From Clytia hemisphaerica (Eukaryota; Cnidaria; Hydrozoa; Leptothecata; Clytiidae): a stretch of DNA of 64,000 bases. How positions within the stretch are numbered: the first letter of the stretch is position 1; each line of letters opens with the position of its first letter. Below are positions 12,690 through 42,000 of this stretch, in pieces. A program made the translations under genes and the position numbers. Under the pieces are notes generated by a model, which had not been told where the DNA came from, did no database searches, and worked only from the letters and a program-made list of their open reading frames with translations. Location of the stretch: NCBI GenBank assembly GCA_902728285.1, contig CACVBU010000480.1, positions 310,001 to 374,000 of the forward strand, given 5' to 3'.

Positions 12690-15298
12690 ATGTCCAGCTT
12701 ATGTTTTCTTTTTGTACTCATTTGGCTTGGTGATCGAGTTTTCTGCCAAGGTTAGTAATTCTTGTACACACTAACTAGCCTCTTTCTTTTGATGACAAAG
12801 TACCACATTTTTATAAAGTGGTTTGCTGACAATAACAGAGAGTGAGATCAATACCGGATCAGGGACACCCCTGTTTCACAGACCCGCTGGGACACCAGCC
12901 CCACTGGAAAATTTAGTAAAAATTTCGTCCCTGGTGGAAAAATACCCTTGAATTTCAGCCCTACTGGGAAATTGACTTTGACTTCATCCCCACTCGAAAT
13001 TCCATGTTTAAAATTTCACTCTAAAACCATCCCCACTGGATTTTTTATTCTTGGAACATTAGAATTTCTCTCCCCATTGGGATTTTGATGGAAATTTTCA
13101 TCCCCACTGAGGAAAATAATGTTCCACCGGGGCTGTGAGACAGGGGTGTTCAGGGTGTTTGCAGAAAATGCAATTTCACAAGGTCAACAATAGCGAGGTT
13201 ACCACCTCTTCAAAAGAGCAAAGCAAAGCACCTTTATATTTTCCTCTTTCACTATGACACGCAGGATCTTGCAGAAACCATTCTGATTGGATGAATCATC
13301 TACCAATAGAAATGCACAAAATGAAGATAACGGAAATAGCCATTCCAGGCTCCCACGACTCGGGAACTTATTCGTTGATGAAGACAAGTGATATTTTTAT
13401 TGATGGCTCAAGTCATAAAGTAAGTAGAATTATTACTATATGCATCAACATATTAAATTTTGCTCACTGTTTTTAATGAACTTTTACATTTTTTAAACAT
13501 AGCTTTTCATTGAGCCGATTGCAAAGTTTTGAATTCCAAAATTTGAGTTCTTCTGTACAATAAAAAAAATAGCCGGATAATTCTTATCAGTAAACCCAGG
13601 GTTTTCTTTCATCAGCACGAGTATCTCATCTTTAAAGGGCGCCAAGCCACGACATTCATTACTTAATATTTTCTACGGAATCACCCCGGATTTTGCCAGT
13701 AGTGGCGCAAATTTAAAAAAAAGATTCTCTATCTACCTTCAATTTTCCAATACTGGAAAAAACCTACGTGTTCCCGTAGAAACGGCATTACATCATGAAT
13801 ATCACATAAATCTTTGCAAAGCAATAAATTGTTTTGAAACAACTTTTTCGGGGCTTTTTCAACAATCGATTTAAAACGGTCACCGTCTGGTGTATAAATA
13901 AGAAAAGTTTCAAAATTAAATAAAGCTTTTTGACATAACTTTGTTTTTCTCACAAACAAACAAACAAACAAACAAGATGGTCTTGAAAAATGATTAAATA
14001 TTATAAAAACCCTTTTTTCACCATAGAATGACATCATCCTTGATTTTTTGAAGTTTCGATCACAATATAAACAAAACGGCCTGCTGGGAGAATTAATTTA
14101 CAGATGGTCTATAACGCAAGATCTTAACATCACAAGCCAGTTGTATTGTGGAGTGAGATACCTTGACCTTCGAATCGCCTTCGATCATAGAAATGAAAGG
14201 TAGGCCTTTTTCAGAAACCGAGAACAAAATTAAGGAGCGATGGCCAAGTGGTCAAAGGCGATTCGCCGTTCGAATCCCCACTCCTTTCAATGATCCGTTC
14301 AGTTCATAGATAGCGGAGCCGACTGGCCGCAGACCCCGTGAAAACAATAGAAAGACTGCCCAAAAGCCTTAGATTACTGGGCTATCCACGTAAAATTCTA
14401 TATATATCTTACGCAAATGGTCCCATTGTTTTCCCGAAAACCACCATGAAGTTGTGTTGAAGGGTGGGTTTATTTCTTTACGTTTGTGAAAAATATGGTC
14501 AGTTTATACACAACGCATTTAATGTTATTCGTTTTCAGTCGAGTCGTTCATGGTCTATTCGGGACAACACTCCACGACATATTTACTCAGATCAAAGACT
14601 TCATCATAAAATACTCCAAAGAAATCATCTTACTGGACTTGCAAAGTATGGCAACAAACCATGAAATCAGCAAAGAGAATGCTCTAAAGAATGTTACAGA
14701 TTTGTTACAAGATTTTTTTTCTGACCGTATCATATTTGCAGAAAACATTCAAAGTTATAAACTGAAAGATCTGTGGCAGCAAAACATTAGCGTTATTGTA
14801 TTCAAGCGATCACGTGACAATAACAAAAAAGATTCGATTCTTCACGCGCATGCGTCAATTCGATCACCGTTCGATTATAAACAATTCACGCAAACATGGT
14901 CATGGTTGCACTTTCTTGATTTAAATTATGCAAATAGAGGTAAGCAAGGCACTGATACTTTCTATGTGACTCAAGGAATTATGCAGCCACACTGGATGGA
15001 AGTCGTGATCGCTGGCATCTCAGAAAATGCAACCTTGAGAAGTTGGGTGTCAAGTAAAGCGACACGAAAAATAAGGGACTGGTTACACGGTAAACATATT
15101 GGAAAAAATGGTATTAATATAGTGATCGCTGACTTTGTAGAGTTTTCCAATTTCACAGACACAGTTCTAGATTTAAACGCAGTCACCAATGTGAGAGGTC
15201 CTACATCTCGAAAAAGTGGCTCAGTCTGTTACAGGTCCATCGATAACAATTTGTTATGGTTGCTCTTAATTATTTTCATGTTGTTGGAAAGATATTGA
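12690..15298 (+). CDS. secreted PI-PLC X-domain protein (PLCXD-like)
   Basis: Four exons join in perfect phase: 12690-12750, 13265-13419, 14054-14199 and 14539-15298, giving 373 residues. Exon 1 is a signal peptide (FLFVLIWLGDRVFCQ). Exon 2 holds IPGSHDSGTYS with the first catalytic histidine. Exon 3 holds GVRYLDLRI, the conserved X-domain strand. Exon 4 opens with VVHGLFG, the second catalytic histidine, followed by KEIILLDLQ and NIVIADFVEF. The X domain of phosphatidylinositol phospholipase C cleaves inositol phosphodiester bonds. PLCXD proteins lack the PH, EF and C2 domains of signalling PLCs, and none are visible here. The protein ends in LLWLLLIIFMLLERY, a hydrophobic tail that fits a GPI-anchor signal or a membrane stub, so it probably acts at the cell surface. 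The usual PLCXD1-3 proteins are shorter and cytosolic. Confidence 0.9.
12862..13155. mobile_element. MITE of the CCCCACTGG family, in PI-PLC intron 1
   Basis: The ends read ACACCCCTGTTTCACAGACC and, from the right, ACACCCCTGTCTCACAGCCC. The interior repeats 'ccccactggaaaatt' and 'catccccact' words every 40-60 bp. Relatives lie at 28.0-28.35, 28.48-28.78 and 60.80-61.02 kb. Confidence 0.7.
13420..14053. other. PI-PLC intron 2
   Basis: No gene seen. It holds an (ACAA)n stretch at about 13952-13974. Confidence 0.5.
14234..14286 (+). pseudogene. deleted tRNA(Ser/Leu)-like fragment
   Basis: GGAGCGATGGCCAAGTGGTC looks like the 5' acceptor and D arm of a type-II tRNA. It is followed directly by a T-arm-like GTTCGAATCCCCACTCC. 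The anticodon and variable arms are absent. It lies in PI-PLC intron 3 and is probably a SINE head or decayed tRNA. Confidence 0.4.
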
Positions 15299-15424
15299 GA
15301 AATAATGTGGACTGTGATTTGAAAGTAATTTAAACTGTTTAAAGTAATTTAAACTGGCTAAAAATATATCATAACTTTATTTAACAATGCTACTAAATGT
15401 TCTAAATATAAAAATCGAAGAAAA

Positions 15425-15539
15425 TTATTTGCTACGTTTGTACCATTTAACATGCTTCTGTCCTGTATTTTTCAGGCTAGTACAATCTTTTTCTCTTGTG
15501 TCTTGCAAACCTCTTTGTAATTTCAGATTTCCCGAAATT
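15425..15539 (-). pseudogene. frameshifted former C terminus of paralogue 1
   Basis: Downstream of the stop, a different minus-strand frame encodes NLKLQRGLQDTREK and ends KHVKWYKRSK. It aligns with the paralogue's NLELQGGMQDTRAK and KHIRWYQTRK. A deletion of about a dozen codons plus a frame change just before 15540 separates it from the main frame. It could also be reached by an unseen splice. Confidence 0.5.
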
Positions 15540-16568
15540 TCATTTGGACCACGAATCACGTTGCATTCCTTTCTGAGAGTCATGCATACCGCCCTGAAAT
15601 AGATCATTTGGGAGAGCGAAGGGCTGGTTTTGAGCGTCATGCATACCGCCCTGAACTTCATCATTAGGGAGGGCGAAGGGCTGGTTTTGAACGTCATGCA
15701 TACCGCCCTGAACTTCATTATTCGTGAGGGCGAAGGGTTGACTTTGGATATCATGCATACCGCCCTGAACTTCATCATTAGGGAGGGCGAAGGGTTGACT
15801 TTGGGCGTCATGTATACCGCCCTGTACTTCATCGTTCGGAAGTGGGAAGGAATGCGATTCAACATTGTCCATGTGAAGCATCAAAGGCATGGGTTTGCGA
15901 TAAGGTCCATCTAGAAAGAAAACAAAAACACTACCGTTTAGGCTAAAGAAATAGGATATCACAGATAAAAACTCTCAATTTGTTTTGAGAAATTTTAAGT
16001 TGGAAGTTTAAAGGACAGTAGAAAAGTATCCATAAGGGTCCTTGGAAAAATCTCTTTAATTTGTAAAACTATAGAATGCATACCATATTTCACTGTGTCA
16101 TGCATACCGCCCTGAACTTCATCATTCGGGAGAGCGAAGGGCTGGTTTTGAGCGTCGTGTATACCACCCTGCACTACATCATTAGGAAGTGGGAAGGACG
16201 GCGATTCAGTATTGTCCATGTGAAGCATCAAAGGCATGGGTTTGCGATAAGGTCCATCTCTATCTAGAAGGAAAAGTTATGAATATATGTAATAATGTAA
16301 TTTAACTTTTCTATCCTTAAGTAACCCCGCTGTGTGATCAATGATCAAATAAGTAACTCTAAAAAAGTGTTAAGAATTAATAAGAATACGAGAATAAAAA
16401 ATGGTTGCTTTAGGGTGATGACAAAGCCCCAAATAAGATTGGCGGTTGAAGTTAATTGAAGATTACGGGGGTTAAAGAGTGTGTATTCATACCTTCAATA
16501 TATCTTTGATGTGAAAATTCCATCAAACAGAACAGTTGGAACACGAAAAATATCACTGCGTGTTTCAT
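15540..16568 (-). CDS. small secreted repeat protein, paralogue 1
   Basis: I do not recognise the family. Minus-strand exons 16493-16568 (0 to 1), 16084-16263 (1 to 1) and 15540-15910 join in phase. Exon 1 is a signal peptide (IFFVFQLFCLMEFSHQR). Exons 2 and 3 both begin with the same block, DGPYRKPMPLMLHMDN, so one is a duplicate of the other. They continue with tandem copies of a 19-residue unit, QPFALPNDEVQGGMHDAQN, one or two in exon 2 and about five in exon 3. The protein is rich in Q, N, G, H and M, has no cysteine after the signal and no dibasic sites inside the repeats. It ends at a stop just after GMQRDSWSK. A region homologous to the paralogue's basic C terminus follows at 15425-15539, but in another frame. 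Confidence 0.65.
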
Positions 16569-17204
16569 CTTGTCTTTAATTCCCAAAAAATACTTCTTCA
16601 GAGAGATGAACTGACGAAAAGATTAGCTTCGCAACGTCTGAAGGGTTAGCTTAAATCAGATTTTCGTGGTCTGATGTCCTCACTCTGAGTGAAATTATAC
16701 TTTCATAATTTTTGTGCTATATATTAATTTGAAGCAAAAATTAACCAGATGGCATCCGCTTTTATCCTTATACTGTTTATCTTTCTGAACAAGCGTCAAC
16801 TTCAATCAAAGTCTATTTTGCGATAGATAGAAACTAATTTTCGCAATCTATTTTGCTTTTATTTCACCTAACCAAAGCTGTTTTTAATGAATATCTGAAA
16901 AGGGAAACAGAGTCATAAGAGAAAAACTTGACGAAGCTTTAATAGACTTCTTCTTCAAAACGCTAACTCCAAAGAACAGACTTTCATAGTTCGTAGAAAC
17001 CATACGCGGTAAAATTCACAACAAACTTTATTTTGATGTTTATTCTGGCGTTGAAACCAGAAAAGTACCTTGAATAAATGTCTAAGAAATTAGAATGCCT
17101 AGTCATTTTCGCCGTCCGATATCACCTTTTTTCTTTTTGTGCCCACTAGCAGACTGAAGACCGTCCTTTGGTTATCTTTGACGTCCAACTAAGGGCTAAG
17201 GGAT
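16569..17204. other. upstream region of repeat-protein gene 1
   Basis: Short blocks here, for example CAGATGGCATCCGCTTTT near 16748, match the region upstream of paralogue 2 near 27.41 kb (CAGATGCTATCTGCTTTT). They may be retained promoter or 5' UTR sequence from the duplication. No gene seen. Confidence 0.4.
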
Positions 17205-17205
17205 G

Positions 17206-17472
17206 TACTGAGGCCCCCCTAGCGGTAACTCTGATCACGATATCACGCCATTTTTTGTCTTCAGGATCACGATCACGCAAATCAGCAAAAGAAATTAGAC
17301 AATCATGCATCTCTTTGAAAAAGTCCAAATCATGTATCACGGCTCAAAAATCTTTCAAATCACAATCACGTTTTGACATCTCCACGAAGGAAAAAATTCC
17401 AAATCACGTAATCACGCTGCAAAAAAGTCCCTATCACGTCATCACGAAAACCGCTTGGGGGGGCCTCTGTAC
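17206..17472. mobile_element. MITE with GAGGCCCCCC ends and ATCACG iterations
   Basis: TACTGAGGCCCCCCTAGCGG on the left is inverted on the right as TACAGAGGCCCCCCCAAGCG. The interior holds about ten scattered copies of 'atcacg'. The long open frame across it is produced by these repeats and is not a gene. Confidence 0.55.
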
Positions 17473-17477
17473 TAAAT

Positions 17478-17835
17478 TCAACATATGTTCGAATCAATAC
17501 TGGCATTACAATTACTTTAACGTCCGTTATACCCAGCAGCTGAGCCAGAACGCCTTTCCTTGGATGATCGTACGTCAGACGGCTGTATTATCAGGTGAGG
17601 TTGTCTTTAACATTACCGCAATTATCCATCATCTCTTCTTTGGCCTAACGATATGTTTGCTATCTACTACATGAGTAAGGATTTGCTTTTGCCAGTGATC
17701 ATCCATGCGCTGAACATGAGCAAACCATCAGAAGTCTACCTTGCAGCACAACAATTTGAAAGTGTGTACTATCGAAAGTACACCCTTACAGTGCATTTGA
17801 GAGATACGAAGTCTGTCTCTAATGCACAACCATAG
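17478..17835 (+). pseudogene. short coding-like block, possibly CPBP protease-like, frame-broken
   Basis: One frame reads SGEVVFNITAIIHHLFFGL and ends near 17674. A second, overlapping frame reads MSKDLLLPVIIHALNMSKPS. The order (E-x-x-x-x-[R/N], then H/F-F-G, then P-x-x-x-H-x-x-N) recalls the CPBP/Rce1-type intramembrane protease motifs, but the second Glu and the Arg of motif 1 are missing and the frames are offset. It could equally be chance. Confidence 0.2.
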
Positions 17836-18619
17836 AGACATTTTCTGATAGAAATATCGAACATAGTATCCACCTAATCATTGAATTATCATTGGAATGA
17901 TTCACAATACTCGATAGTTACGGTCCAAATTCAAGAGCGTGCAACGGGACACCTCTCACGGCAGAAAGAAACATATTTATTTGTGTCGTGATTTTTTTTA
18001 ATTTTGACTTCTATTTCCTAGCTCTACATATTTTACGCAATTTAAATATTATTATTGTAACGTTATAATTTAATATTTAATTATTGCATTGCATTCATAA
18101 GAACCAAAAAGGAAGGAAACACACGACCACGACATTTCAGGGAAATATTTCTTTTCGTCAAGACCGGGGGTAAGTCATCCCCCTCCACGAGGTTGATGAT
18201 TACATAATATTAAGTTAGTTCTTTATTTCTTGACAATTTTTCTAATATATTATCTCTAAGGAAATCCCTCTCATAAGAAAGAAATTAACGGAAAAAAAAA
18301 ACACATAAATTTTTTAAAATTGAATTGAAAAATTTCAATTGAAATTTGAACTATAATATCCCAAGGTGTCCATGGTTGGGTGGTTGCAAAAATTCATGAA
18401 AAAAATGTGGTTACTATAAAAAACTGAGCATCAATAATTCAACTGTTGGTTAGCAGTGACTAAGCCAAGAGCACAGAAAACAATGAATAAGTTTATTCAA
18501 TATTTTGGACAATTTTTGCGCTCTTCGCAACAACAAGATACGATATTAACAGTGTCAAAAAAAAAAATTCAAAAAAACAATTTTAAGTTTACTTTCTTTA
18601 GAGAGATAACATCGACAGA

Positions 18620-21600
18620 ATGTTTAAGACGGGGATATTCGAGGTAATACTTTTTGGCATAAATTTTATTCTTTGTGGAGCAGTCAAAATCGAATCATCA
18701 AACAAAACAGTTGGAAATACTGTGTATCATATCAAGAAAGTTGAATTCAAAAAATATCCAAATGTTATGCCGACAAATGGTGCAATCACACACGATAGCA
18801 TTGAAATAACCAATGCAACCACAACGTAAGGAACTTTCCTAGTTTTCAGTGTGTTCATGTTTTTACAATAGTTTACTTTACGGTTCCGAATAAACGTCTC
18901 CCCCGGCCCACTTACTAATTTGAAAATATTTTCAGCTATCAAAAGCTGAATTGCTCTAAATAGCCTCGTTTTAGTATAAAATCATCTTAATTTGAGGAGT
19001 TTTTAGTGGTATACCTTATCGGCCAAAACTTAGTCGGCCCTAAGTGACTAAATTTTGACGAGGTGACTAAAATTAGGGCCGACTAATAATTAAGGCCGAC
19101 TAAAATTAAGGCCGACTAAGTTTTGGCCGATAAGGTAATCAATCGGCCGGCCATATTACATCAAAAAATAATATTGGTGATAAATTTTTAGAAAATGCGG
19201 AACGGAATGTTATCATAAAACGACCTGCTTGAGTTTTCTGTTTTTCCGCCACAAAACACCACCAACATGCACTCTCATTGATGGACCAATCAATCGAAGT
19301 CACATGACCAAAAATTCAACAGTTGACTATTATGAAGTCTGGGTAAGTGATAGCCTGGAAGAAAGACAGTTGACTTTCGCTAATTCGAACTCGAACGGGG
19401 AATCTTATTTGTTCGAGTTACAGAGAGATTCGAATTATAGAAAGTTTACTAAGAGGGTTTCTCCATGACGGGAACTGGAAACAAGTTCGAGTTATAGAGA
19501 GTTTGTTGTCTAGACTAAAGTGTATCCAAATATAATTGGCAGTGGAGAGACACAGATAGAACATTTATTAACAAAAAAAACAATAGCGTCATCATTTCAG
19601 CCGCGACTTTCTTATACTATGGTAAAACCAGGGACAAAGTTTGTTTCTTTCGATTCACTTGTGCAGAAAAATGTTCTTTTCTTTCTACTGAATTTTGAAC
19701 AAACCTCCGTCATGACCTACAGTGTGTCCCAAATGAAACAGACGAATTTTTATATAATGTAAAATCCTCAAAACTAATTATCTAAACTGGGTTTAGAATT
19801 ATTGAAATAAGATTCAAATTCTCTGTTCAATCAATAGATATTCCATTGCCAAGATGATTGAATAGGTTTTGGAGATTGAAATATTCAAGTAAAAAAAATT
19901 CGCATAAATCATGAGGATTTTACCTTATATAATAATTTACCCGCTTTTTTTGGGATACACTGTATCTTAAACGGTTGATTATATGTCCTTCCTCGTCAAA
20001 GCTAGGCTGCTGACATCCACTGACGGATTTTTATACTATCTACTGTTTTGTTGAGGTCTGCGATTCAGACTACAGTAAGAATAGACCTTTTCATAAATTA
20101 CGTCACGAACATCACTTGCCTCGTTTTGAAACTATTGCCATGGTGATTAACTTCAAGCGGATTTTATTTAAACTACTTTCTATTCATAAATAAATCATTT
20201 AATGTCTCATGATCACCATATAAATTGTTTGAATACGAGGCAAGTGATATTCGTGACATAATTTATGAAAAGGTCTATCAACTTTTAAAAAACATGTTTC
20301 TTTATAGAACCATTGTTCTTCAAACGAGAGTATTTGTAATTTGGGTATATGCGTACCAAATTATAACACAGATACATTCACTTGTCACTGCCCGTCTTAT
20401 TATACTGGTCAATTTTGTGAAACACGTCTTTCGCATAGTAAGTATCGATTCTCAACTTTGACTTAATGCCCAAAAATTTAGAAACTGAATTTCTTATACT
20501 TTAATGTCAGATACACTTTTTTTTTACAAGAACAATTTTATAAAGAACAATGAGGCTCAAAAATACCAAAAAATAAGAACAATTTAAGAACAGCGGAGAG
20601 GCTGAAGTTAGAGAGTTATAGCAAAAAGAATCACTGGTTTCTAAAATCCTCTAAATAGTAAAGTAAATAGCCAAAACTTGTTTTTTACCTTAGAAAAAAT
20701 AAGAACAAAATAAGAACAATTCAATGCTCAAAGTGCCAAAAAAATAAGAACAGCCGAGCCTCAGGAAAAATTTACTGGTTCTTATAAAAAAAAGTGTAGT
20801 TACCATTCGCGAACTTTTCAAGGTTTTCTTATAAAGTATAGAGTGAAAGTAATTGTTTTTTTGCTCGCTTCCCTTTTTCAAAAGAATATCAACATTTTCT
20901 GTAAATACAAGTAATCATGTTCATGAAGTAATGTAAAAACTGAAATATTAGATATTTAAACTTACTTTTTTAAATCAGTCATCAAAAAGTATTAAAATTG
21001 TCATTATTCTTTTTCCACGTGTACGTAAAATTTTACTTTACACCTTATACGATAAATCGTTCGAACGTTTGCTAAAGTTAGTCAATTTGAAAAAAACTTT
21101 TTATATCCACCGGCTGTAAATTGGGTAAACTCCCTTCAACAACAAAACATCTCCAAAGAATTTCCATTTGGCTTATTGCTTAGGCGAGACCGATTTGATA
21201 AGTTGTTTTACGAGCCCGACTGACCCTGAAATCTTACCAACTTTCGCGAACAGAAACTTTAAAAAAATAGAAAATCTGTAAAACTTCACACTTTAAATAA
21301 AATGTAACTTTTATGGCATTTTTAGCCTGCTAAAAGACTAATAAGTCAAAGAACAAATGTTTCAAGCCAATCCAAAGCAGAGGAATGTAAAGAGATGGAA
21401 AAACAGCTTCTTGAAAACAATGGAAAACGGCTTGTCATATACCAGGTCTCTTGCCCTTAAGGGAGTTTATGAGTTTATGGAGCTCGAGAAAATTATAACT
21501 TCTTCTTGATTTTACTCGACTTCTGACAATTTTACAAGAACCAATTTAATATCATTGCGTTAAGAATTTCTTTTGCTATACATTGGTGAAAATATTGCTC

Positions 21601-24226
21601 CTTATTCTTGAAAATTAAACTAGTAATCGGCAAAAAAGGAAAAACTAATTTTCATTTTTATCGTCGAATCATGTAGAAACCGTCCGATTTGTATGGCGGT
21701 CTTTTCTGGACTTTCATTTAATGACCTAATCAACGTTTTTTGGCCCGTAAAAAAAGAAATTAAATTGGACCCGCCTTATAGCGACTTATTTGGTCTTCCA
21801 GACATTGAGACAAATAATGAAAAATACTTCACAATTTACTACACAGTTGCCACTTTCTTTTTTTGACTGATTGACACTGGCATTGGCTGGATGAAAATTT
21901 CCTCTCAGAGCCAATAAAACTGGTTCAAACATCATCAATTGGATCTAAAGTAAAAGGGTTAGATGATATTCCGCCCTGATCTAAGGGGGTCAAACAGATC
22001 GTTCAAGAAAGGATTCCTTTTCTTATAGCAACAACACAAAGCACGGTACAAGCAGAAACGACCAGTACAAGTGACACACTTCCTCCACCAGCTCTTGGAT
22101 GTAAGATGGAACTTTTTTTAAGAGATGCATTAGTCGACTCTATGATAAAAAATCTACGTTCTTGTGGATACAGTTAGCTCTCAATAATTCTAAATCGAAC
22201 GATTTGTTCGAATTATAGAGAGTATTTTACAAGGGTTTCCCTTTTTTTCCCTGGACGGGAATTGAGAATTGGTATGAATCATAGAAAGTTTCGAATTATA
22301 GAAATTCAAATTAGCGAATTAGTGCACTGCATAGTGTGTCCCGAAAAATGCGGACACATTTTTATATAATACCAAGTAAAATCCTCAAAAGTTAAGCCAA
22401 ATTTTATGACTTCTTAGTTTACATAATTTTTTCTCTCAAAAACCTATAATCTTGTGAATTGAACATAAATTGATTACAAAGAAAATTGTAATCTTATTCA
22501 TATTATTCTAAGCCTATGTTTAGGTAACGGGTTTTAAGAATTTTACTTTATACCGAGTGTTTCAAAAAAGTGTACAAGCTTGAATTAAGATTGTGAGAAA
22601 ACTAAAAATGATTTAAATCTAAACTACCACCTTAATTAACATTTTTCGATTTTAACAATTCTATTTGTACTCTTTTGATAATCAAAACATTCGAAAGGCC
22701 CTCGAATCTTTCGTGTGGCAAATCTTAAGTATGATAGCCCAAAATTTTTTTCGGGACGCACTCTCGTAGTATGTATCAACATCCATTCACTATAAAAGTG
22801 GATAAATTTTTTATACTTTCGAAAAAAGAAAATTTCACAATTTTTCTATAAGGAAATTCGGATAAAGGAATTTTTACCATTTTATAAATCTATATAGAAA
22901 TGGTCTGATAGATCTATTCGCTTCACAAATGTATTTTATTAGCGAGTTTTTGTATCGGTTCCAAATAAACGCCGCCCCCCCCCCCCCGCTTGTTAATTTT
23001 TCGAAGATTTTACAACCCCTCCCCCCTGGACCTTATAAGGACCACCGTTTATTAATTTTTACGAATGTTTTCAGTTGTCAAAGAGAAGACCCATTATTTT
23101 TCTCAAAATAGCCTAATTTTAGCCTATATTTACCTTATCTTTGGGTTTTCAGATGTACAATTTCCAACCCCCCGGCAATTAGGTCCCCCCCCCGTTTATC
23201 AAAATCTCGAAAAATTTCCAACCCGCTCCCCTTTATCCAAATCCCCCCGTTTATTTGGAACCTAAGAGTATAGAGGGCCACGGTAAGTGAAGTTGACACA
23301 AGACAAAGTCGATAGTTGATGTACAGTTTAAATCGCCTTTGCTCACCTAAACAGACGACAGTTTTTTTGTGTTTTGACCGTTGGGGACATGTGGACATGT
23401 CAACTTTGCTTTTTATCATCTCCTTACATTTATACCGAATAGATAAACTCGGTATTAGCTCTTCATTGATGAATCCATGTGAAAGAATATCTTCCTTCTT
23501 CATTTTAGGGCACCGATGTCGAGTCAGCGAAGATCACATCTTAGATTATCCTGTGGTACCGGAAAATTGGATTATAAAAGTCAGTTTCAAAATCGTTGGC
23601 CAACTACTACAAACGCCGGCGAACCAAGTGACCATTTTCGAAATGATTTATAACTGGGTTCCTTTCTTGCGACTGAAATACACACCAGGACTTGAGGTAG
23701 TATGATATTTTCTTTTCAAATTTATTTATTCGCTCCACGAAATAAGAGTATTTTGGTGAAGGGCCCAGAATTATTAATTCGGAAATAACAAAAGTAAAAA
23801 GAGACTAAAATTTGAATAAAAAACGGTCAAGTTAAGATCTTGAGATTAAGGTTTTTTCGTTACCGCCGTTTTCCTCCGAATAATATGGCCAATTTCGAGA
23901 TTTAACAAATTGTTTTTTAGCTCACAATAACAGGTGAAACAATTGAGAAATTCAATGATAACAACCCGTCATTCGAGCCTCAAAATGACATAATATATAA
24001 CGTCAGCATATGGTTAGTAAAAGGACCAAAGGAGGTTAATTATGAGTTGAGACAGGCAAGCAATAATGATTTACTGCAGAGCGGTCAAGTCACTCTTCCC
24101 TGGATACCTCAGGGTTCAAGTTCTGGTGATCAAGCCAAGATCTTTGCAGGTCCCAAGTATTACGACGAAGGTGATTATGACCTTAATGCCATCGATATGA
24201 CAACCGCTGGGATTGAAGCCAATTAA
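18620..24226 (+). CDS. secreted protein with probable ConA/laminin-G-like domain
   Basis: Candidate exons are 18620-18825 (signal peptide core FEVILFGINFILCG, out phase 2), 19234-19342 (2 to 0, weaker acceptor), 22029-22100 (Ser/Thr/Pro-rich TTSTSDTLPPPAL, 1 to 1), 23509-23696 (1 to 0) and 23921-24226 (stop). One exon between 19.3 and 22.0 kb is missing, because phases 0 and 1 do not meet. The last two exons alternate beta-strand-like segments (WIIKVSFKIVG, NVSIWLVKG) and end AKIFAGPKYYDEG, the shape of a laminin-G/ConA-like jelly roll that binds glycans or matrix. The fold assignment is inference from pattern. The Ser/Thr-rich exon looks like an extracellular linker. Introns contain several MITEs. 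Confidence 0.5.
19012..19137. mobile_element. MITE with ACCTTATCGGCC ends
   Basis: TACCTTATCGGCCAAAACTT is repeated in perfect inversion over 28 bp. 'GGCCGACTAA' recurs several times inside. A relative lies at 36784-36959. Confidence 0.75.
19366..19508. mobile_element. MITE, pogo-like CAGTTGAC family
   Basis: It starts ACAGTTGACTTTCGCTAATT and ends with GTTCGAGTTATAGAGAGTTT. Internal words are shared with 2.05, 6.1, 22.2 and 24.4 kb. It lies just inside an intron donor. Confidence 0.55.
19722..19962. mobile_element. mariner-type MITE with TA duplication
   Basis: TA|CAGTGTGTCCCAAATGAA on the left and, from the right, TA|CAGTGTATCCCAAAAAAA. Similarity continues inward (TTATATAA, GTAAAATCCTCA). 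A related copy lies at 22.33-22.77 kb. Confidence 0.75.
20081..20278. mobile_element. MITE with about 53-bp inverted ends
   Basis: ATAGACCTTTTCATAAATTA through CACTTGCCTCG is repeated in inversion with four or five differences. The core is about 90 bp. Confidence 0.7.
21182..21776. mobile_element. MITE of the AGGCGAGACC family
   Basis: AGGCGAGACCGATTTGATAA ... TTTTACGAGCCC on the left, inverted at 21740-21776. The best-preserved relative is at 33881-34264, and a single arm lies at 59207-59249. Confidence 0.55.
22168..22325. mobile_element. degenerate pogo-like MITE
   Basis: ATACAGTTAGCTCTCAATAA start, internal GAATTATAGAGAGTATTTTA and a CCCTGGACGGGAATTGAGAA block shared with 19.4 kb. Confidence 0.45.
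22331..22766. mobile_element. mariner-type MITE (TGTCCCGAAAAA ends)
   Basis: The left end is AGTGTGTCCCGAAAAATGCG; read from the right, AGAGTGCGTCCCGAAAAAAA. It shares TTTATATAAT and AAAATCCTCAAA words with the element at 19.7 kb. Confidence 0.6.
22959..23265. mobile_element. MITE with GGTTCCAAATAAACG ends and poly-C runs
   Basis: GGTTCCAAATAAACGCC on the left is inverted at the right end, beside CCCCCCG. Runs of 6-14 C occur at four places. A partial relative starts near 18882 (GTTCCGAATAAACGTCTCCC). Confidence 0.65.
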
Positions 24227-24743
24227 ATCGATAAGATATAGTCAAAGGCTAGAAGCGCATGTACATAGGATTTGAAACTATTTATAACACTGTCGTTGGT
24301 GTGATAAAGTAAGATTTAGGTTTTATAATCGCCCTAAGAAGAAAACTACAAAAATGATAAAACAGTGGAGTCTCCATAACTCGAACACGCACGGGGAATA
24401 AAAATTTTCGAACTATGGAGTTAGGTTTATAAGGCATTGTTAACTGAAGGGGTTAAGGAGAAATTCGCAGTGGAACCTCCAATTAGCGGGGTTACTGTCT
24501 GCTAATTAAAAGTGTCCGCCAAAGGGAACGCGCCAAACGTCTAAGCTATTTGTTTAATGAAACTTAGAAGTTTTTAAGAAATAAATAGTTTGGATAAATC
24601 AAGATTGTCTAATTTTTTAAAGTCTGTGACCAGTTTAACCGTCGATGTCCGTTATAGCTGTTTTTGCACCTTCTTGAGTTTCTTGACTGAACTTGATTTT
24701 TGACGTTATTGAGCATGTTCTAAATATCATTTTTTTCAACTTA

Positions 24744-25223
24744 CAGTCCCTGGCTCACAGAATGCAGGTGCCCCACAGAATGCAGGTCTGACGTAAATCG
24801 TCAAAGTCACAAGCTTTAGAAGACTTACGGGGTACAGGGTAAGGGTAAGGGGGTACTTAGGCAAATGGAGGGTACGGTATGTGCCGCCCTTAAGGTTACC
24901 TTTTTTGGACTTCCAAAGTCCCGCTAAGGGTCGGAAAATCAGAAAATCAAATTTCAGTCCCACTAAGGGCCGGAAAAATGGGAAGATTTCAACTTTTTAC
25001 CCCCTGAAAGATCGAAAATTGGTCAAATTTGTCCCACTAAGGGTCGTAAAATTCCCAAAATTTTCCTTTGGTTTTTACTAGTAAGGGTCCAATGTTCGAA
25101 AGTCGGGCGGCACCCCCCGCCCATCAGCTCGCAACCCTATAGGATGTAGAAAAGAATAACCACACTACTATGCGTCAGAATTCGCATCAGAAAAAGCACC
25201 TGCATTCTGTGGTCCAGGGACTG
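24744..25223. mobile_element. MITE with CAGTCCCTGG ends and TA duplication
   Basis: TA|CAGTCCCTGGCTCACAGA on the left and, from the right, TA|CAGTCCCTGGACCACAGA, continuing to GAATGCAGGTG. The interior has degenerate 'cccactaagggtcggaaaat' units every 60-70 bp. Confidence 0.75.
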
Positions 25224-26397
25224 TAGCATATCTTTTGATCTAGTGAACCAAATTTTATAAAAACCCATCAAATTTTAAAATTACTTTTTCTTCTTTCTTA
25301 TAAAATAAGTTTGATTCTTTGAAAATTCGCATAGAACTTGTGAAATCTTACTTCAAAGAGGGTAAATTTGTTCTGACACACCCGATATAAAGATTGTAAA
25401 AAATTGCCTGGAAAGATCCCTGAAGACTGTCTCAATATAATCTGCAGCGGACATTTTGTGCTCGTTAAAAAAAACTATCCAGAGTGAAATATTACCAAAA
25501 AAGAAAATATTCCAAAAAATGGAAATATGAAGATGAAAAATGAAGAAGAAGAAGTGCTTCATATTTTTGTCAGAAATTCTTCGTTCTTAGAACATCACAG
25601 TTGCTAGAAAAAAATATCAAAAATATTTATTTTCATGCAGATTATGTTGAGGCAGACTTTAGTTTATTATATTATATTATTTTATTTCACATTTGCAACT
25701 TTGTAACATACACATTTAGTATCTTTTAAAAATTATATACAATACTACAATTTTCAATTAATGTAAATATGCTAACAAAAATATAGTGCAATAATATAAT
25801 GTTTTAGGAACTTTTTCTTTCTAAATTTTGAGTCAATGTATCGAGTCCTATTTCGAAAATATAATAAATGATGACTTTTTTATAAATTTCTACCATGAAA
25901 AAAAACAATTGATTAAGAAGGAGAGGTAGAGATAGCCTGTACCACCCCGACACGGGCGTTTTTTATATTTTGAAAAGACTTGCCGTGCGTCGGTCTGTTT
26001 CGGTTAGCCAGATTCTGTGTCTCAGTTTTATCCATAGTCACTAAAATATTATACGATATTCAATTTGAAATTGGTTTGTCCCAAAACAAAAGCGTAGGAG
26101 TACTCTTTTTAAAAATGAAAGATACCATTGCATTGATGCGTTAAATGTAGCGTCACTCTTGTTGAGCTAGATTGAATGCTAAAAATAGCTACGCTCCACC
26201 GCAGATACATTCAGAGTTTTGCGTAAAAATGTCTGAGATACGGAATGTTGCTTAATTGTAACAAACTGAACTTCGCGTTTTCTTTTCAGTCAACAAAAAA
26301 CAGTTTGGTACAGGCTAAAATAAGTTTACAGAAGATTGTATCATTTCGAATGAAAAAAGGAATACATTTTGTAAGAAAATCGAAAATTTCACAAAAT
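25224..26397. other. intergenic, no gene seen
   Basis: Very AT-rich. It lies between the ConA-like gene and the 3' end of repeat-protein gene 2. No repeat with clear ends. Confidence 0.4.
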
Positions 26398-27189
26398 TTA
26401 TTTTCGTGTTTGATACCACCGGATGTGTTTTCGTTTTGGTGAAGGCGGCAGGGCGGGGCGCCCGTATTTTCCTGGCAAGTGTAATCTCTTTGCTCTCGTA
26501 TCTTGCATACCTCCTTGTAATTCCAAATTTCTTAACATTTCGTTCATAGACATGTCTCTTTGAAAGTCCCATTGAGATCTTGTATCCCGTTGCATACCAT
26601 CCTGCATATCCTGCATACCGTCCTGCGTATCCTGCATACCGTCCTGCGTATCCTGAATTCCACCTTGCACGGTACCGTCTTGAGGGACCTGCATACCACC
26701 CTGCTCAGTATCTTGCATACCACTCTGCACTACATCATTTGGAAGTGGGAAGGACGGCGTTTCAATATGGTCCATGTGAAGCATCAGAGGAATAGGTTTG
26801 CGATAAGGACCCTCTGTATCTGGAAAGAAAAAATAAATTGCTCAGTACAAGAAAATCTCACGCAATACTTTGTTTTCAAAAAATATTCACTCCTTGGCGT
26901 TTGGAGACTAAATGCAAGCACCCGTTTGGCTCCTTTTTGGGATAACATCAATTCTAACAAATAGATTAATCATGATTGTAATGCGTGGTCTCACTTTAAG
27001 ATAAACGAACTTGACTAAAATCCCTTGACTAAAATCCCTTAACGCAAAAACCTTTTTGATTTTTTAAAAATTTTGAACTTCTAGGAAAAAATTTCAAAAA
27101 ATCTTACCTTCAATCGAGACGTATCTTTGATGTGAAAATTCCATTAAACAGAAAAACTGGAGCACGAAAAATATCACTGCGTATTTCAT
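26398..27189 (-). CDS. small secreted repeat protein, paralogue 2
   Basis: I do not recognise the family. Exon 1 (27108-27189) encodes a signal peptide nearly identical to paralogue 1 (MKYAVIFFVLQFFCLMEF) and ends in phase 1. Exon 2 (26398-26819) opens with the shared GPYRKPIPLMLHMD block and SFPLPNDVVQ. It then shortens the repeat to GMQDTQD-type units (about six). It continues with DFQRDMSMNEMLRNLELQ and ends in a basic, proline-rich tail (PALPPSPKRKHIRWYQTRK). The protein is about 170 residues, with no cysteine in the mature part. The intact tail here shows what paralogue 1 has lost. KR and KRK sites flank the tail, so proteolytic processing is conceivable. Function unknown. Confidence 0.65.
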
Positions 27190-30727: not shown

Positions 30728-32004
30728 ATGGCCAAAAGATTTATAAAGGTATAAACCTCCTATTTTCATATAAATCTTAAAAGGGTTTATTGGCTTTTAC
30801 AGCCAATCAACGGAGCACTTTGGGACGACTTTTGTCATTATGTTGACTAAGGTTAACTTACCGATCGATGGGGGTCCTAGGGCGGGGCCATGTAATTAGG
30901 CTTTTTAAATCGGACCCTTACAATTCAGAAAAATTTGTGCGAAAAATCGACCCTTACAGTGCATTTTCTTGAAAGTTTTTGACCATTTTCAGGCAAAATA
31001 TGGTCAGATTTTGAAATTTTACAGAGTGCAATTTTTCTCATCTTTGCTGCTTTCGACCCTTGCAATGCACTTTCAGAATGGGAATCTTGGAAAATATACC
31101 CTTAAGGGCCGCACGTATGGTAGGTCATTTACCTTGAAGCCCGAAATTTGTTGATTTTGTTTGTCGGATCTGTCTTCAGAGCGCCAGTGTTTAAAGCGAT
31201 CAGAGCGAAAAAGCCTAGGCTTTCGTTTTCAACATTCTTCCTTGCAAGATTTGCCACAATCAAGGAATTTCCATACATTTTCTATTTCAGCGAAAATCAG
31301 CATCCACATCAACATCCATAGAAAGCGAAGAAAAAGAAAGAAACACTCCCTCCCCTCACAGCCTACAAGTTCCTTCAGATTGCAGACGAAGAGCTCACAC
31401 CTTTGATGAAAAGAACCAGAATACCTTCGGCAGTGCTCTATTCATTCGTAAACAGAAAGCCGAGCGGATACATTCCTATAAAACTTTCAGGATATCAGTG
31501 TTAGGTAGTTGTCAAGTTGGAAAGAGTACCATAATAAAATGTTTTCTTGGACAGCTTTTTGAAGATTATTATAATCCAACAATAAGTTGTGAAGTTTTTG
31601 AAGCCGGGATCTTCTTGGAGATCGAAAACAAATTAAAACAGTTTGATTTGGTGTTCCACGATTTTCGTGGTGATTTTCACACAAACAATCCTTTACAATA
31701 CCGAGATGAGTTGATCCACAGCCAGGGTTTCATTCTGGTGCACACTAAAAATGAATTACAAAGTTTCCCTCAAGTCTTAGAAATGTTATCTGATATACGA
31801 AAAGTTAAAGGTGATGATTTCACATCAATTTTGATTATGGAGAATAAATGTGACGAGTTATGTTATTATGGAGATAAAAGAAACAATAGACGTTCTTTTG
31901 ATATGGATGGTTGTCTAAATTCTGCTGTGTCAGCAAAACAGAACAAAAATGTAACAGAAGCCATAGGTTCACTGGTAGAAAACATAGAAATGACTCAATC
32001 ATGA
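30728..32004 (+). CDS. Ras-like small GTPase, paralogue 1
   Basis: The main exon 31291-32004 (acceptor TATTTCAG) encodes 237 residues. A basic/serine-rich N-terminal extension (RKSASTSTSIES...) precedes a Ras-type G domain. P-loop GSCQVGKST, switch-I threonine in NPTISCE, G3 as DFRGD, G4 as ENKCDE (NKxD kept), G5 as SAK. Ras proteins switch between GTP and GDP states. Here the residue after the G3 glycine is Asp instead of the catalytic Gln, which predicts poor GTP hydrolysis. There is no CAAX box, so no prenyl anchor. A tiny in-phase first exon is possible at 30728-30748 (MAKRFIK, then a GTATAA donor). Its neighbour at 35.6 kb is a clear paralogue. Confidence 0.85.
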
Positions 32005-35317: not shown

Positions 35318-36339
35318 ATGGATGAGAAAATTAGCAAAGCAAGGGTATACCAACTTTCAACAATTTAATTTCAATTTTAAAGGGAAAATGTAGCAAAGTG
35401 CCATGAAAGTGACAAAAAATCAGTCTAAAATAATAATTAAAAATTAAAGCTTTTTCTAAAGCAAATTATTTTTAAAGGGTCTAAAATAGCGAAGGAAAAG
35501 GTCCTGAGGAGGCGTTTGTTAAGCGTAATTTGTTTTCCATTTTTCTTTAGCGCAAGATCAGTCAGCCTTTCCGCAGGCTACAGCCCGTTCAAGAAACGAG
35601 TCACGTGAACATTCACGAAAACACGACTCTTGCTCACGAAATGGAAACAAACACCACAAGATCACGACCTCGTTCGAAAACATTGGCTGATATCTCACAG
35701 GATTCATTTGAGATTAGACGTCGTTCAGAAGATTCACACAAAGCTAGCATTTTCAGTCACCTTGGTCACACTATATTTGTTCACCATCATAAATCGGATA
35801 AAAAGAGAGTCCATGGATACAAGTCTTTCAAAATTCTCGTTCTCGGTGTTAAAGAAGTCGGTAAAACGTCAATCATAAAACGTTTCATTAATGGTAAATT
35901 TAACGACGAATATCTGCCGACAATTTCCGAAGAATATGAAACAGGTATATTTCTCGAGATTGAAAATAAATTAAAACAGTTTGATCTTGTTTTCAAAGAC
36001 TTTGGAGGTGACTTAAAAACATTTTATCCAGAACTTTACAAAGATGAAGTCAAAAGTGCAGATGGATTTATATTAGTACACACGGAAAACATCCCAGAAA
36101 GCTTTGCAGAAGTATTAGAAATGGTAGCTGATATCCAGCATGCAAGGCGTCAAGAAGTCTCAATTATGATTCTAGAAAATCAAAGTGAGCGACAGAATCA
36201 GTTTGATGTTTTTAAAGTTACCAGGAAATCGTTCATTATGGAGGGAATGTTGAATGATTCAGTATCAGCCAAAATGAATTATAGAGTTGATGAATCAATC
36301 GCTGAACTCGTCAAAGAAATGGAGAAGAAGCTCACGTGA
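35318..36339 (+). CDS. Ras-like small GTPase, paralogue 2
   Basis: The main exon 35551-36339 encodes 262 residues. A long N-terminal extension (RKISQPFRRL ... HHHKSDKKRVHGYKSF) precedes a Ras-type domain. P-loop GVKEVGKTS and switch-I LPTISEE are intact. G3 is DFGGD (Asp in place of the catalytic Gln). G4 is ENQSER, so the guanine-specificity NKxD motif is lost. SAK is kept. The protein ends EMEKKLT with no CAAX box. It shares GIFLEIENKLKQFDLVF exactly with paralogue 1. Base recognition is probably weak or lost, so this may be a pseudo-GTPase. A 27-bp in-phase first exon is possible at 35318-35344 (MDEKISKAR). Both genes start their main exon in phase 0 with Arg-Lys. Confidence 0.85.
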
Positions 36340-39080: not shown

Positions 39081-42000
39081 TCAGAATGCAAATCCATTTT
39101 TAACAGATTCTTCAACAGGGACCAAAATACTGGATGTGGGTGTAAAGCAAGTTCCACTTGAGCTCGATGTTGGTACTTTTGATAGCAAATTGATGGGCTT
39201 GAATAAAACCATATCATTCATCATTTCCCTTGATTTCAAAGAATGCAATGTCTAAAATTATGAAAATAAATAAAAATTGATAAAAACAATTCCTTATTTT
39301 GTTTGCACTGGGAATGAAATCGTTATGTTGTGTGTTATGCAGCCTCCCATAGGGGAGAATCTAGATTGTCTGGAAAAGAGCCTGCCGTAATTTCAGTGTG
39401 TTTCAAGATAAAAAGTAAATAAGTTATTACCTTCAATTTAACAATTCTTGGTCTTTGCTTTTTGGATAATTTCTATAAGGAAAAAATTGAAAACTCTTAT
39501 TAATTCATAAAAACAAGTGATAAGTTTTATAAAATATAGGATGGTGAACTTTTTTGCATTTGAATATGTTGATCAAAAAACTCTTTATAAATGATACCTT
39601 CCCAGTTTCTTGCTGTTTTTCAAAGTCGATGGACGGCCTTGGAATATCAAGCGGTGTAATGCATGCAATTTTACGGTTCCCCCTAAGACCAGTATGTATA
39701 ATTGATGCATGTTGAGTACTACATTTGTGTTTTGAGTAAAGTTCTTTCATCTCTTCATCAGATGAACTATCCCCATGGTATGTAGGAGATGGCTTCAATG
39801 TTTTCATTTTGTAGGGACATACACTTGATCGTGAAAACTTTCGTTTTTCACCTCCTGTTGACCGCTAAAACAAAACAATACAAATGAATTAAAAACTTTA
39901 CTTGCTTTTTTATACTATAAAAGGAATTACTGATTACTGAAATTTAAAACTACATCAATGACAATGATTTTTGCATTAAAAAATCTATAAAATAGAATGA
40001 TAGGTCAAAGTAATACCTTTGGTGACCCAGAAAAAGGTGAGTTTGTATGATTCCTAGTGTGAACTGAGTTCATTTTTACTATCTGTTGGTGATTTGGGGA
40101 GGGTTGTGTCAAGTCTTCTACCTGAACAAGAGGTTCTTCCTTTGTGTTGACAAAAGTGTATGAGTTTGGTTTGGAATAGTAATTATTAATCAGTTCCGCC
40201 TTCAAAACATCTTGCCACCGTCAATGAAAAATGGATATCTGGTCTCTAGAAATAAAGGTTTGAAAGATATTGACATAGAGCATCCAAAAATTTATACTGT
40301 ATACTAGTATGTTTTTTTTTAATTTTGAAAATTGTCCTGCATTGGGTGATTGTAGAGAATGAGTGTTGTGAGGTTGTTCAATGATTTGATATAAGTTTCT
40401 TCTGTTAAAAAACCATTTCAAAACGTGGCGTGAGCTACCCTCACAACCTTCTCTGATTAAATGAAAATTTCCACAGCTTTTATAGCATATCAACATGTCA
40501 AAATATCTAACAATGTCATTAGGGAATACAATCATACAAAAGAAATAGGAGGGATTTCTAGATAAGCTAGAAATCCCTAATGACTAGATAAATTACAAAC
40601 AAATTCTTGTAAGTCATTTGGGAATTAATACGTGTATCAAATAAACTATTCATTTTAAATGTAAACAAATTCCGCATGTCATTTGGGAAAATGACGTCAG
40701 TTCAGCAGCAATTAAACACAAAGAAAAGCTCCTTTGGTGGAGCGTGCGTCGAAGTCAGTATAACACAAGATGTTTTACAATATACCCCCCCCCTTAACGA
40801 ACGTTGGGAAGTTCAAGTCTGTAAATCTTCGAAGCGGGTCGGAGGTATGTACCAGCATTCGTCTTTACATACGCCATTCGAATTCGATTGTCTCGTCCGG
40901 GTATTGTTTCCACAATAATACCAAGTGGCCATTGTCCTCTTGGTGCATCCATGTGCAGGAGGACCATATCACCAACTTGCAGGTTTCTCCTTTCTTCGAC
41001 CCATTTGCCTCTTGTTGTCAGTGTTGGGAGATATTCAGATCTCCATCTATTCCAGAAGTGTTCTAAGCACATCTGAATGTGCTTCCATCGTTTGCGATAG
41101 CATTTTGTTATGTCCAAATCTTTGTCTGTATTGAGTAGGACTTCTGCGTTGTGAATCCTTTTAGCAGGTGGTTCGGTGTTAGTGCCTCTAAGTCTTTAGG
41201 ATCTTCACTGATTGGAGTTAGTGGACGACTGTTCACGATATTTTCCACTTCAGTTATGAATGTCATAAGTTGAAATTCGGTTAATATTAGATTCTTCAAG
41301 GTGAATTTCATGCTTGTTTTGACGGTTCGAACTAGTCGTTCCCAGGCTCCACCCATGGTGGCGCCGATGGAGGGTTGAATTGCCATTCAATCTCCCTGAG
41401 TGAACAAAATTCCCCAATCTTGTGCTGGTTCAATTTTCTTAGTTCTTCTTTGAGCTCGTTTACCGCACCTTTAAAGTTTGAGCCACAATCCGAGAGCAGC
41501 TTCCTTGGTTTCTGTCTGCGACTGATGAAGCGTTGGAGTGCGTTTAAAAAATCGTCAGTTTCCATACTTTCTACAACTTCAAGATGGACGCATCGGACCG
41601 TCATGCATGTAAATAGTGAAACCCAGCGCTTCAGACGTTTGCGACCTTGTTTAACGAGAATTGGTCCAAAGAAATCCACACCAGTATTGGTGAATGGTGG
41701 TTGGTTGAGTTGCATTCTGCTGTTAGGTAAGTCAGCCATCATTGGAATCTCAGGTTTGTTTTTAAATCTTTGACATTCCACGCATGCTTTGATGACTGTT
41801 TTGATTACTTGCCTTCCACATAATATCCAATATTTCTGTCTAACTTCGGATAAGGTTTGATTTACACCACTGTGACCATTCTCTTTGTGATATTTCTCAG
41901 CAATAAGTGACGCAACATGTCCTTTGGGGATAACAATTTGATGTTTTGCTTCAAATGAGACAGGGGCATTCTTAAGTCTACCGCCGATTCTCAAGATGCC

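Follow-up and report, generated by a model that had tools for sequence, protein, structure and literature searches.

Two neighbouring genes for putatively secreted repeat proteins in a hydrozoan genome: a candidate precursor of a cationic peptide and a paralogue without its tail

The 64,000-nucleotide (nt) stretch of contig CACVBU010000480.1 analysed in this study (the window) carries two minus-strand genes for small, putatively secreted repeat proteins, here called gene 1 (start codon at 16568) and gene 2 (start codon at 27189). The 10.6 kb between the start codons agrees with the first-pass annotation of this DNA, which had placed two such genes about 10 kb apart. Combined, the results support an undescribed family of secreted repeat proteins, found so far only in this genome and in near relatives. 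For gene 2 we tentatively favour, with a probability of roughly 0.4, a secreted precursor in which acidic repeats precede a conserved cationic C-terminal peptide behind a Lys-Arg site, of a defence-type or signalling kind.

Gene 2 has two coding exons that together encode 167 residues. Exon 1 (27108..27189, minus strand, as are all features of both genes below) is the signal-peptide exon, MKYAVIFFVLQFFCLMEFSHQRYVSIE-, with a hydrophobic stretch and a phase-1 end (GAAG/GTAAG), and it is spanned by a spliced relative, P0001. The 288-nt phase-1 intron that follows (26820..27107) is absent from P0001. Exon 2 (26398..26819) encodes a head (GPYRKPIPLMLHMD), acidic GMQDTQD repeats, a spacer (QWDFQRDMSMNEML) and a cationic tail (KRLHLPGKYGRPALPPSPKRKHIRWYQTRK), and ends with TAA at 26400-26398. 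The repeats include a 21-nt tandem array of QDGMQDT units (26591..26669; 3.8 copies, 86% match), and the tail with its stop codon (26398..26490) comprises 30 residues starting at Lys138-Arg139.

Among approximately 5.8 billion proteins, three relatives of these genes were found (P0001, P0002 and P0003). P0001 (JGI, 170 residues, five member sequences, from one contig of 1357 bases) is 97% identical to gene 2 over the full length, with only two substitutions and one three-residue insertion in the repeat part. It corresponds to gene 2 minus the intron, exon 1 being joined directly to exon 2 as predicted. Because P0001 crosses the intron, and gene callers applied to such contigs do not splice, it was taken as RNA-derived. 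We therefore infer that it is the product of a transcript; an intronless DNA copy would look alike, and none was found in the searches of this genome. P0002 (ENA, 120 residues, 71% identity over 77% of gene 2) begins within exon 2, and P0003 (ENA, 97 residues, 49% over 43%) is a head exon in which the frame continues into the adjoining sequence. The latter ends in HDTTKNG-TYV, compared with HDTVKYG at the end of exon 2a of gene 1, where the Gly codon is split after its first base by the donor GT, and the P0003 head core is identical to that of gene 2 at 14 of 14 residues. P0002 and P0003 are read as unspliced DNA of what appears to be a related species sharing the exon plan of these genes.

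Gene 1 comprises three coding exons, of which exons 2a and 2b each begin with a head of their own. Exon 1 (16493..16568) is again a phase-1 signal-peptide exon, MKHAVIFFVFQLFCLMEFSHQRYIE-. Exon 2a (16084..16263; 180 nt, symmetric phase 1-1, donor TATG/GTATGC) carries the first head and one full repeat unit. Exon 2b (15540..15910) carries the second head and an array of 19-residue repeats, corresponding to a 57-nt tandem array of QPFALPNDEVQGGMHDxQx units (15574..15833; 4.6 copies, 88% match), and its frame closes with TGA at 15542-15540 after GMQRDSWSK. The end at 15425 that had first been assigned to gene 1 is where a different frame stops. The motif GPYRKP(M/I)PLMLHMD, described earlier as the shared opening of both proteins, is indeed present in both; there are three such heads in all, two in gene 1 and one in gene 2, and the one in exon 2a (16263-16084) had been overlooked. 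The likeness of the heads is not due to chance: in the window plus flanks, tblastn matched the three with expectation values (E) of 3e-34, 2e-31 and 2e-25.

The near-identical signal exon and the phase-1 intron noted in the first pass both held. Exon 1 of the two genes is 90% identical over 90 nt (most of the exon plus 22 nt of leader), the signal peptides share 83% identity across 24 residues, and both first introns are in phase 1 with GT/AG consensus sites. The N-terminus is hydrophobic in both genes, a putative secretion signal as read from the sequence; a helix at residues 3-23 in a structure model of P0001 fits this. Across the two genes, the three donors and three acceptors are consensus-like, and every junction is in phase 1. 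Exon 2a (60 codons) can therefore be kept or skipped in frame, giving a gene 1 product of 208 residues with it and 148 without it.

The tail of gene 2 can be aligned with the DNA 3' of the gene 1 stop, which relative to it has net deletions of 29, 1 and 26 nt and contains an additional TAG in the original frame. This decayed copy (15425..15539) lies outside the repeat frame of gene 1. Its outer parts are recognisable in another frame (NLKLQRGLQDTREK ... KHVKWYKRSK; tblastn E 2e-5), and a separate search with P0002 counted one TGA and one TAG inside the match. As assembled, gene 1 ends in GMQRDSWSK and is without a basic tail; an assembly error may contribute to one of the frame breaks. An intron linking the repeat frame to the tail frame was considered and rejected, since good donors in the repeats are in phase 1, acceptors close to the tail require phase 2, and a check by eye, made without a program, revealed no frame-keeping pair.

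These observations bear on whether gene 1 is a mere pseudogene, with gene 2 as the sole gene, an explanation compatible with any reading of gene 2. We take this possibility seriously while leaning against it. The deletions and the TAG in the tail favour it, as does the result that none of the three relatives is a transcript of gene 1. In the opposite direction, gene 1 keeps its signal and splice sites, its reading frame stays open for 208 codons through both heads and the repeats, an AATAAA lies downstream at 15381, and the two gene 1 heads show a silent-site bias, although this bias may be older than the loss of the tail. Of the 19 nucleotide differences counted in the coding frame between the heads of exons 2a and 2b, 13 are silent, against an expectation of 24% (P = 5e-5; significance was computed for this pair only); the other two frames give 1 of 17 (P 0.99) and 4 of 18 (P 0.75). 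By the NG86 method, replacement divergence (dN) is 0.05 and silent divergence (dS) 0.51 over 54 codons. This frame-specific bias implies a period during which exon 2a as well as exon 2b was translated; it speaks for past translation of gene 1, not for present activity.

The repeat parts had been described as strongly different, and the units do look different. However, the gene 2 unit (QDGMQDT) corresponds to the latter half of the 19-residue unit of gene 1, and P0002 has both halves side by side (FALPNDEAPSFVLPNDEVQGGMQDTVQGGMQDT), which rules out that the two types are unrelated; both stem from one module. The combination proposed earlier, of rapidly changing repeats with a conserved head in front of them, is seen, and the number of repeats differs even between the window and P0001, but it is half the story: the cationic C-terminus is also conserved, with 27 of 30 tail residues identical between gene 2 and P0002 (29 of 36 in the spacer), and it has been lost in gene 1.

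The charge of gene 2 is strongly polarised, with a net charge of -10.2 in the repeat region (residues 57-137) and +9.9 in the tail (residues 138-167). When the mature sequence was shuffled 20000 times, only 5 of the shuffled versions were as polar in charge order. Gene 2 thereby has an anionic part followed by a cationic C-terminal part; gene 1 is without the cationic part. The Lys-Arg ahead of the tail is found in gene 2, P0001 and P0002, and in all three a second Lys-Arg is present, the two sites enclosing a 16-residue segment, which in gene 2 is LHLPGKYGRPALPPSP. A Gly-Lys in the gene 2 tail is Glu-Lys in P0002. No cysteine occurs past residue 20 in either gene, and the cysteine pattern of periculin is therefore absent. 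Methionine accounts for 14 of the 167 residues of gene 2. An AlphaFold model of P0001, built on a two-row alignment, has a mean predicted local distance difference test score (pLDDT) of 53, with helices of at least four residues only at 3-23 and 113-132, and the mature gene 2 protein is accordingly predicted to be disordered.

Known families were searched for without success. Pfam-A returned no family at E<=1 for gene 1, gene 2 or P0001, and NCBIfam, a prokaryote-oriented library, returned none for P0001-P0003. PDB sequences gave no match to gene 1 or P0001, the best E values of 0.5 and 1.4 being read as chance, and scans of viral and prokaryote contigs revealed no relative of P0001. Seven motif strings (GPYRKP, PLMLHMD and others) were unmatched in literature text, a weak negative given that sequences lie mostly outside the main texts. 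The topical literature listings, in the parts seen, named no family with this signature, and literature on exon duplication and periculin gave no match. The earlier proposal of an undescribed family is therefore upheld by a spliced relative, by relatives in what appears to be a second species and by the lack of a Pfam, NCBIfam, PDB or printed-motif match. Two findings had been named as counting against such a family, an absence of transcripts and a match to a known family; for gene 2 neither came true, its transcript being inferred from P0001, while no gene 1 transcript came to light.

The genome itself (a 417 Mb assembly of 951 contigs) was searched with the 53-residue head and the 120-residue P0002. 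The head query gave at least 6 matches and P0002 at least 5, all within this window; these counts are lower bounds, as only the best candidates were scored and some stretches are N. Among the matches listed, no other copy of the head or of P0002 lies beyond the two loci.

The affinity of the host animal was read from a mitochondrial contig that lies among the nuclear contigs and was found by a cytochrome oxidase match (C900, L035/L036; 14551 bp). Under code 4, the sole code tried, it encodes the usual mitochondrial proteins, which were named by eye. ARAGORN with code 4 called only tRNA-Met and tRNA-Trp, and Rfam placed two tRNAs at the same positions; four further calls in the mitochondrial mode of ARAGORN were taken as doubtful. 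Of the two tRNAs, tRNA-Trp separates cox2 from atp8 and tRNA-Met separates cox3 from nad2; the large rRNA is encoded on the opposite strand. The available text of PMC4655093 describes such tRNA placement for non-aplanulatan hydroidolinans, e.g., Hydractinia, Podocoryna, Cladonema and siphonophores, and a different mitochondrial gene arrangement for Hydra, an aplanulatan. The ends of the contig lie in the large rRNA and cox1, and extra genes that mark Trachylina could fall outside it; Hydroidolina is favoured because cox1 lies behind cob. The animal thus fits a hydroidolinan hydrozoan outside Hydra's group. The GFP family, used as a lineage marker, had no match in this genome and none in 14 controls either, and rRNA motifs were absent from 20 contig starts.

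Under the favoured reading of gene 2, the signal peptide would direct the protein into the secretory pathway. Behind it would follow the conserved head and then disordered acidic repeats, rich in Gln, Met and Asp, that grow and shrink by tandem duplication. The conserved tail, cationic and rich in Pro, Lys and Arg, opens with Lys-Arg, where a convertase may cut and free the tail as an active cationic peptide. The freed peptide would most likely act as an antimicrobial or as a local signal, with the acidic repeats balancing the tail until cleavage. Gene 1 is the paralogue, with a second head exon and with its tail lost through deletions; it would now either encode a secreted protein of head and repeats alone or be in the process of dying. 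Among the structural, adhesive and defence-type roles suggested in the first-pass annotation, the charge plan slightly favours a precursor that is processed, of a defence-type or signalling kind, and at the same tentative level we rank such a precursor above a matrix protein and a classical neuropeptide precursor.

Several points weigh against this reading or lend it little. The conservation of the tail rests on three sequences, of which two are nearly the same. The mature peptide of myticalins is their variable part (available portion of PMC5577615), whereas the tail is constant here, and the majority of Hydra antimicrobial peptides show a complex arrangement of cysteines (PMC10945409, in the part available), whereas none is present here. 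The two loci found in the genome are fewer than in the Hydra clusters. The head exons of gene 1 are constrained yet without a tail, and the head and repeats must therefore matter in some other way, or did until recently. Compared with gene 2, raw counts give 7 replacement and 4 silent differences over 33 codons for the exon 2a head, 9 and 6 over 33 codons for the exon 2b head, and 3 and 3 over 23 codons for exon 1. Site-corrected NG86 values of dN/dS are 0.10/0.21 (2a), 0.13/0.48 (2b) and 0.05/0.47 (exon 1); dN is below dS throughout, in short comparisons to which no significance is attached. Over all pairs of the five repeat units, 24 silent and 38 replacement codon differences put the silent share mildly above the neutral 22%. 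Additionally, neither AATAAA nor ATTAAA occurs within 300 nt past the gene 2 stop.

An acidic pro-part, a dibasic site and a basic Pro-rich peptide together resemble a plan known in defence-peptide precursors. The likenesses set out here concern plan, as described in the available portions of the cited sources, and no homology is claimed. Hydra antimicrobial precursors are small, taxon-restricted and for the most part charge-bipartite, with clustered genes (PMC10945409), and periculin has an anionic N-terminal and a cationic C-terminal part (PMC11767717). Like the Hydra arminins and periculins as described, the present genes are clustered, taxon-restricted paralogues for small secreted hydrozoan precursors with oppositely charged parts; unlike them, they have acidic tandem repeats, a duplicated head exon and no cysteines, and belong to an animal outside Hydra's group by mitochondrial order. 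Mussel myticalins combine a conserved signal peptide, a phase-1 intron and a Lys-Arg between a Pro/Arg-rich cationic peptide and an anionic extension (PMC5577615), features that are also found here. However, their order runs from cationic to anionic, the reverse of gene 2, their cationic part is variable where the present one is constant, and they come from another phylum. Duplicates of Drosophila Baramicin have lost modules from the C-terminal end, in one gene through a frameshift (PMC9246212). The analogy lies in a secreted precursor built of modules, tandem repeats and a tail among them, and in module loss after duplication; furin sites part the Baramicin peptides, whereas the repeats here have no such separation. 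A coral family (PMC2652719), one of the taxon-restricted secreted families of cnidarians, is likewise orphan, small and secreted, but it is cysteine-rich by its title, and no cysteine follows the signal here. The Hydra neuropeptide NDA-1 is antibacterial (PMC5614986, in the part available), and therefore defence and signalling roles need not exclude each other.

The strongest competitor for gene 2, although we consider it somewhat less likely, is a secreted low-complexity structural protein, such as a matrix protein of periderm or skeleton, a mucus protein or an egg coat protein, in which the repeats do the work and the charged ends cross-link or assemble ionically. The repetitive, predicted disordered sequence, rich in Gln, Gly, Pro and Asp, is consistent with this, as are the drifting repeat number and the retention in gene 1 of constrained head exons and repeats without a tail. 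However, the arrays are short (about 4-5 units) where long arrays are usual for fibre proteins, 14 Met residues in 167 would be unusual, and the conservation of the tail and its Lys-Arg junction would be left unexplained.

Multicopy neuropeptide precursors carry repeated copies flanked by basic cleavage sites, often with a C-terminal Gly for amidation. A neuropeptide or hormone precursor, releasing peptides either from the tail (LHLPGKYGRPALPPSP) or from the repeats, would account for the signal peptide, for acidic spacer repeats and for the Lys-Arg sites that flank the 16-residue segment on both sides. The repeats themselves do not follow the multicopy plan: in neither gene does a basic residue, and with it a cleavage site, lie between successive units, a single Lys occurring after the unit of exon 2a and after the last unit of exon 2b. 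The tail with its two Lys-Arg sites is single-copy, and its Gly-Lys is replaced in P0002; this explanation is accordingly judged improbable. Equally speculative is a reading in which the symmetric head-plus-repeat exon would be an exchangeable cassette, duplicable or skippable, before a constant cationic effector, and the paralogue would have shed the effector and been kept for its head and repeats. If true, one ancestral gene would have supplied the animal with two products, a peptide for defence and, apart from it, a secreted repeat protein serving as signal or decoy. Finally, it is very improbable that the loci belong to a mobile element or are open frames that arose by chance: a BEL/Pao element lies 13 kb off, but P0001 is spliced, the constraint is frame-specific, and a mobile origin is rejected given the lack of a transposon domain in the Pfam search and of dispersed copies among the genome matches listed, which lie at these two loci only in 417 Mb.

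The neighbourhood contains several further features. Between genes 1 and 2, at 18602-20466 on the plus strand, PAN-like and EGF-like pieces fall just under the Pfam cut-offs and are perhaps exons of one secreted protein. A 282-residue plus-strand frame at 14450-15298 is convergent with gene 1 and has two chance-like Pfam matches below the cut-off; it may encode a PI-PLC X-domain protein. Two plus-strand frames of about 260 residues (31219-32004 and 35551-36339), an apparent local duplication, have Ras-family matches and long N-terminal extensions. The BEL/Pao long terminal repeat (LTR) element (40351-49612, minus strand) looks young, with 300-nt stretches that are 100% identical at 40351-40650 and 49313-49612; between them lie matches to a Pao peptidase, an integrase zinc-binding domain and DUF1759, with reverse transcriptase and integrase core below the cut-off. 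A 2.4-kb tandem array (46561-49005), with units of 173, 149, 105 and 42 bp among others, lies between its LTR and gag. Elsewhere, about 3 kb of short-unit repeats reading SMYLCIYIST-like (L008, 3621-6851) is probably a satellite, and a GAAC-type repeat of about 0.5 kb (L007, 8910-9485) reads NERT in three forward frames.

Orphan secreted families are common in cnidarians, and taken alone the present pair represents one more lineage-restricted family. Some orphan secreted families shape the Hydra microbiome, as described in the available portions of PMC10945409 and PMC5614986. The family reported here offers a candidate product (a cationic peptide some 28-30 residues long), a spliced relative and, alongside, a natural tail-less paralogue; with these at hand, its parts would therefore be separately testable in a hydroid.

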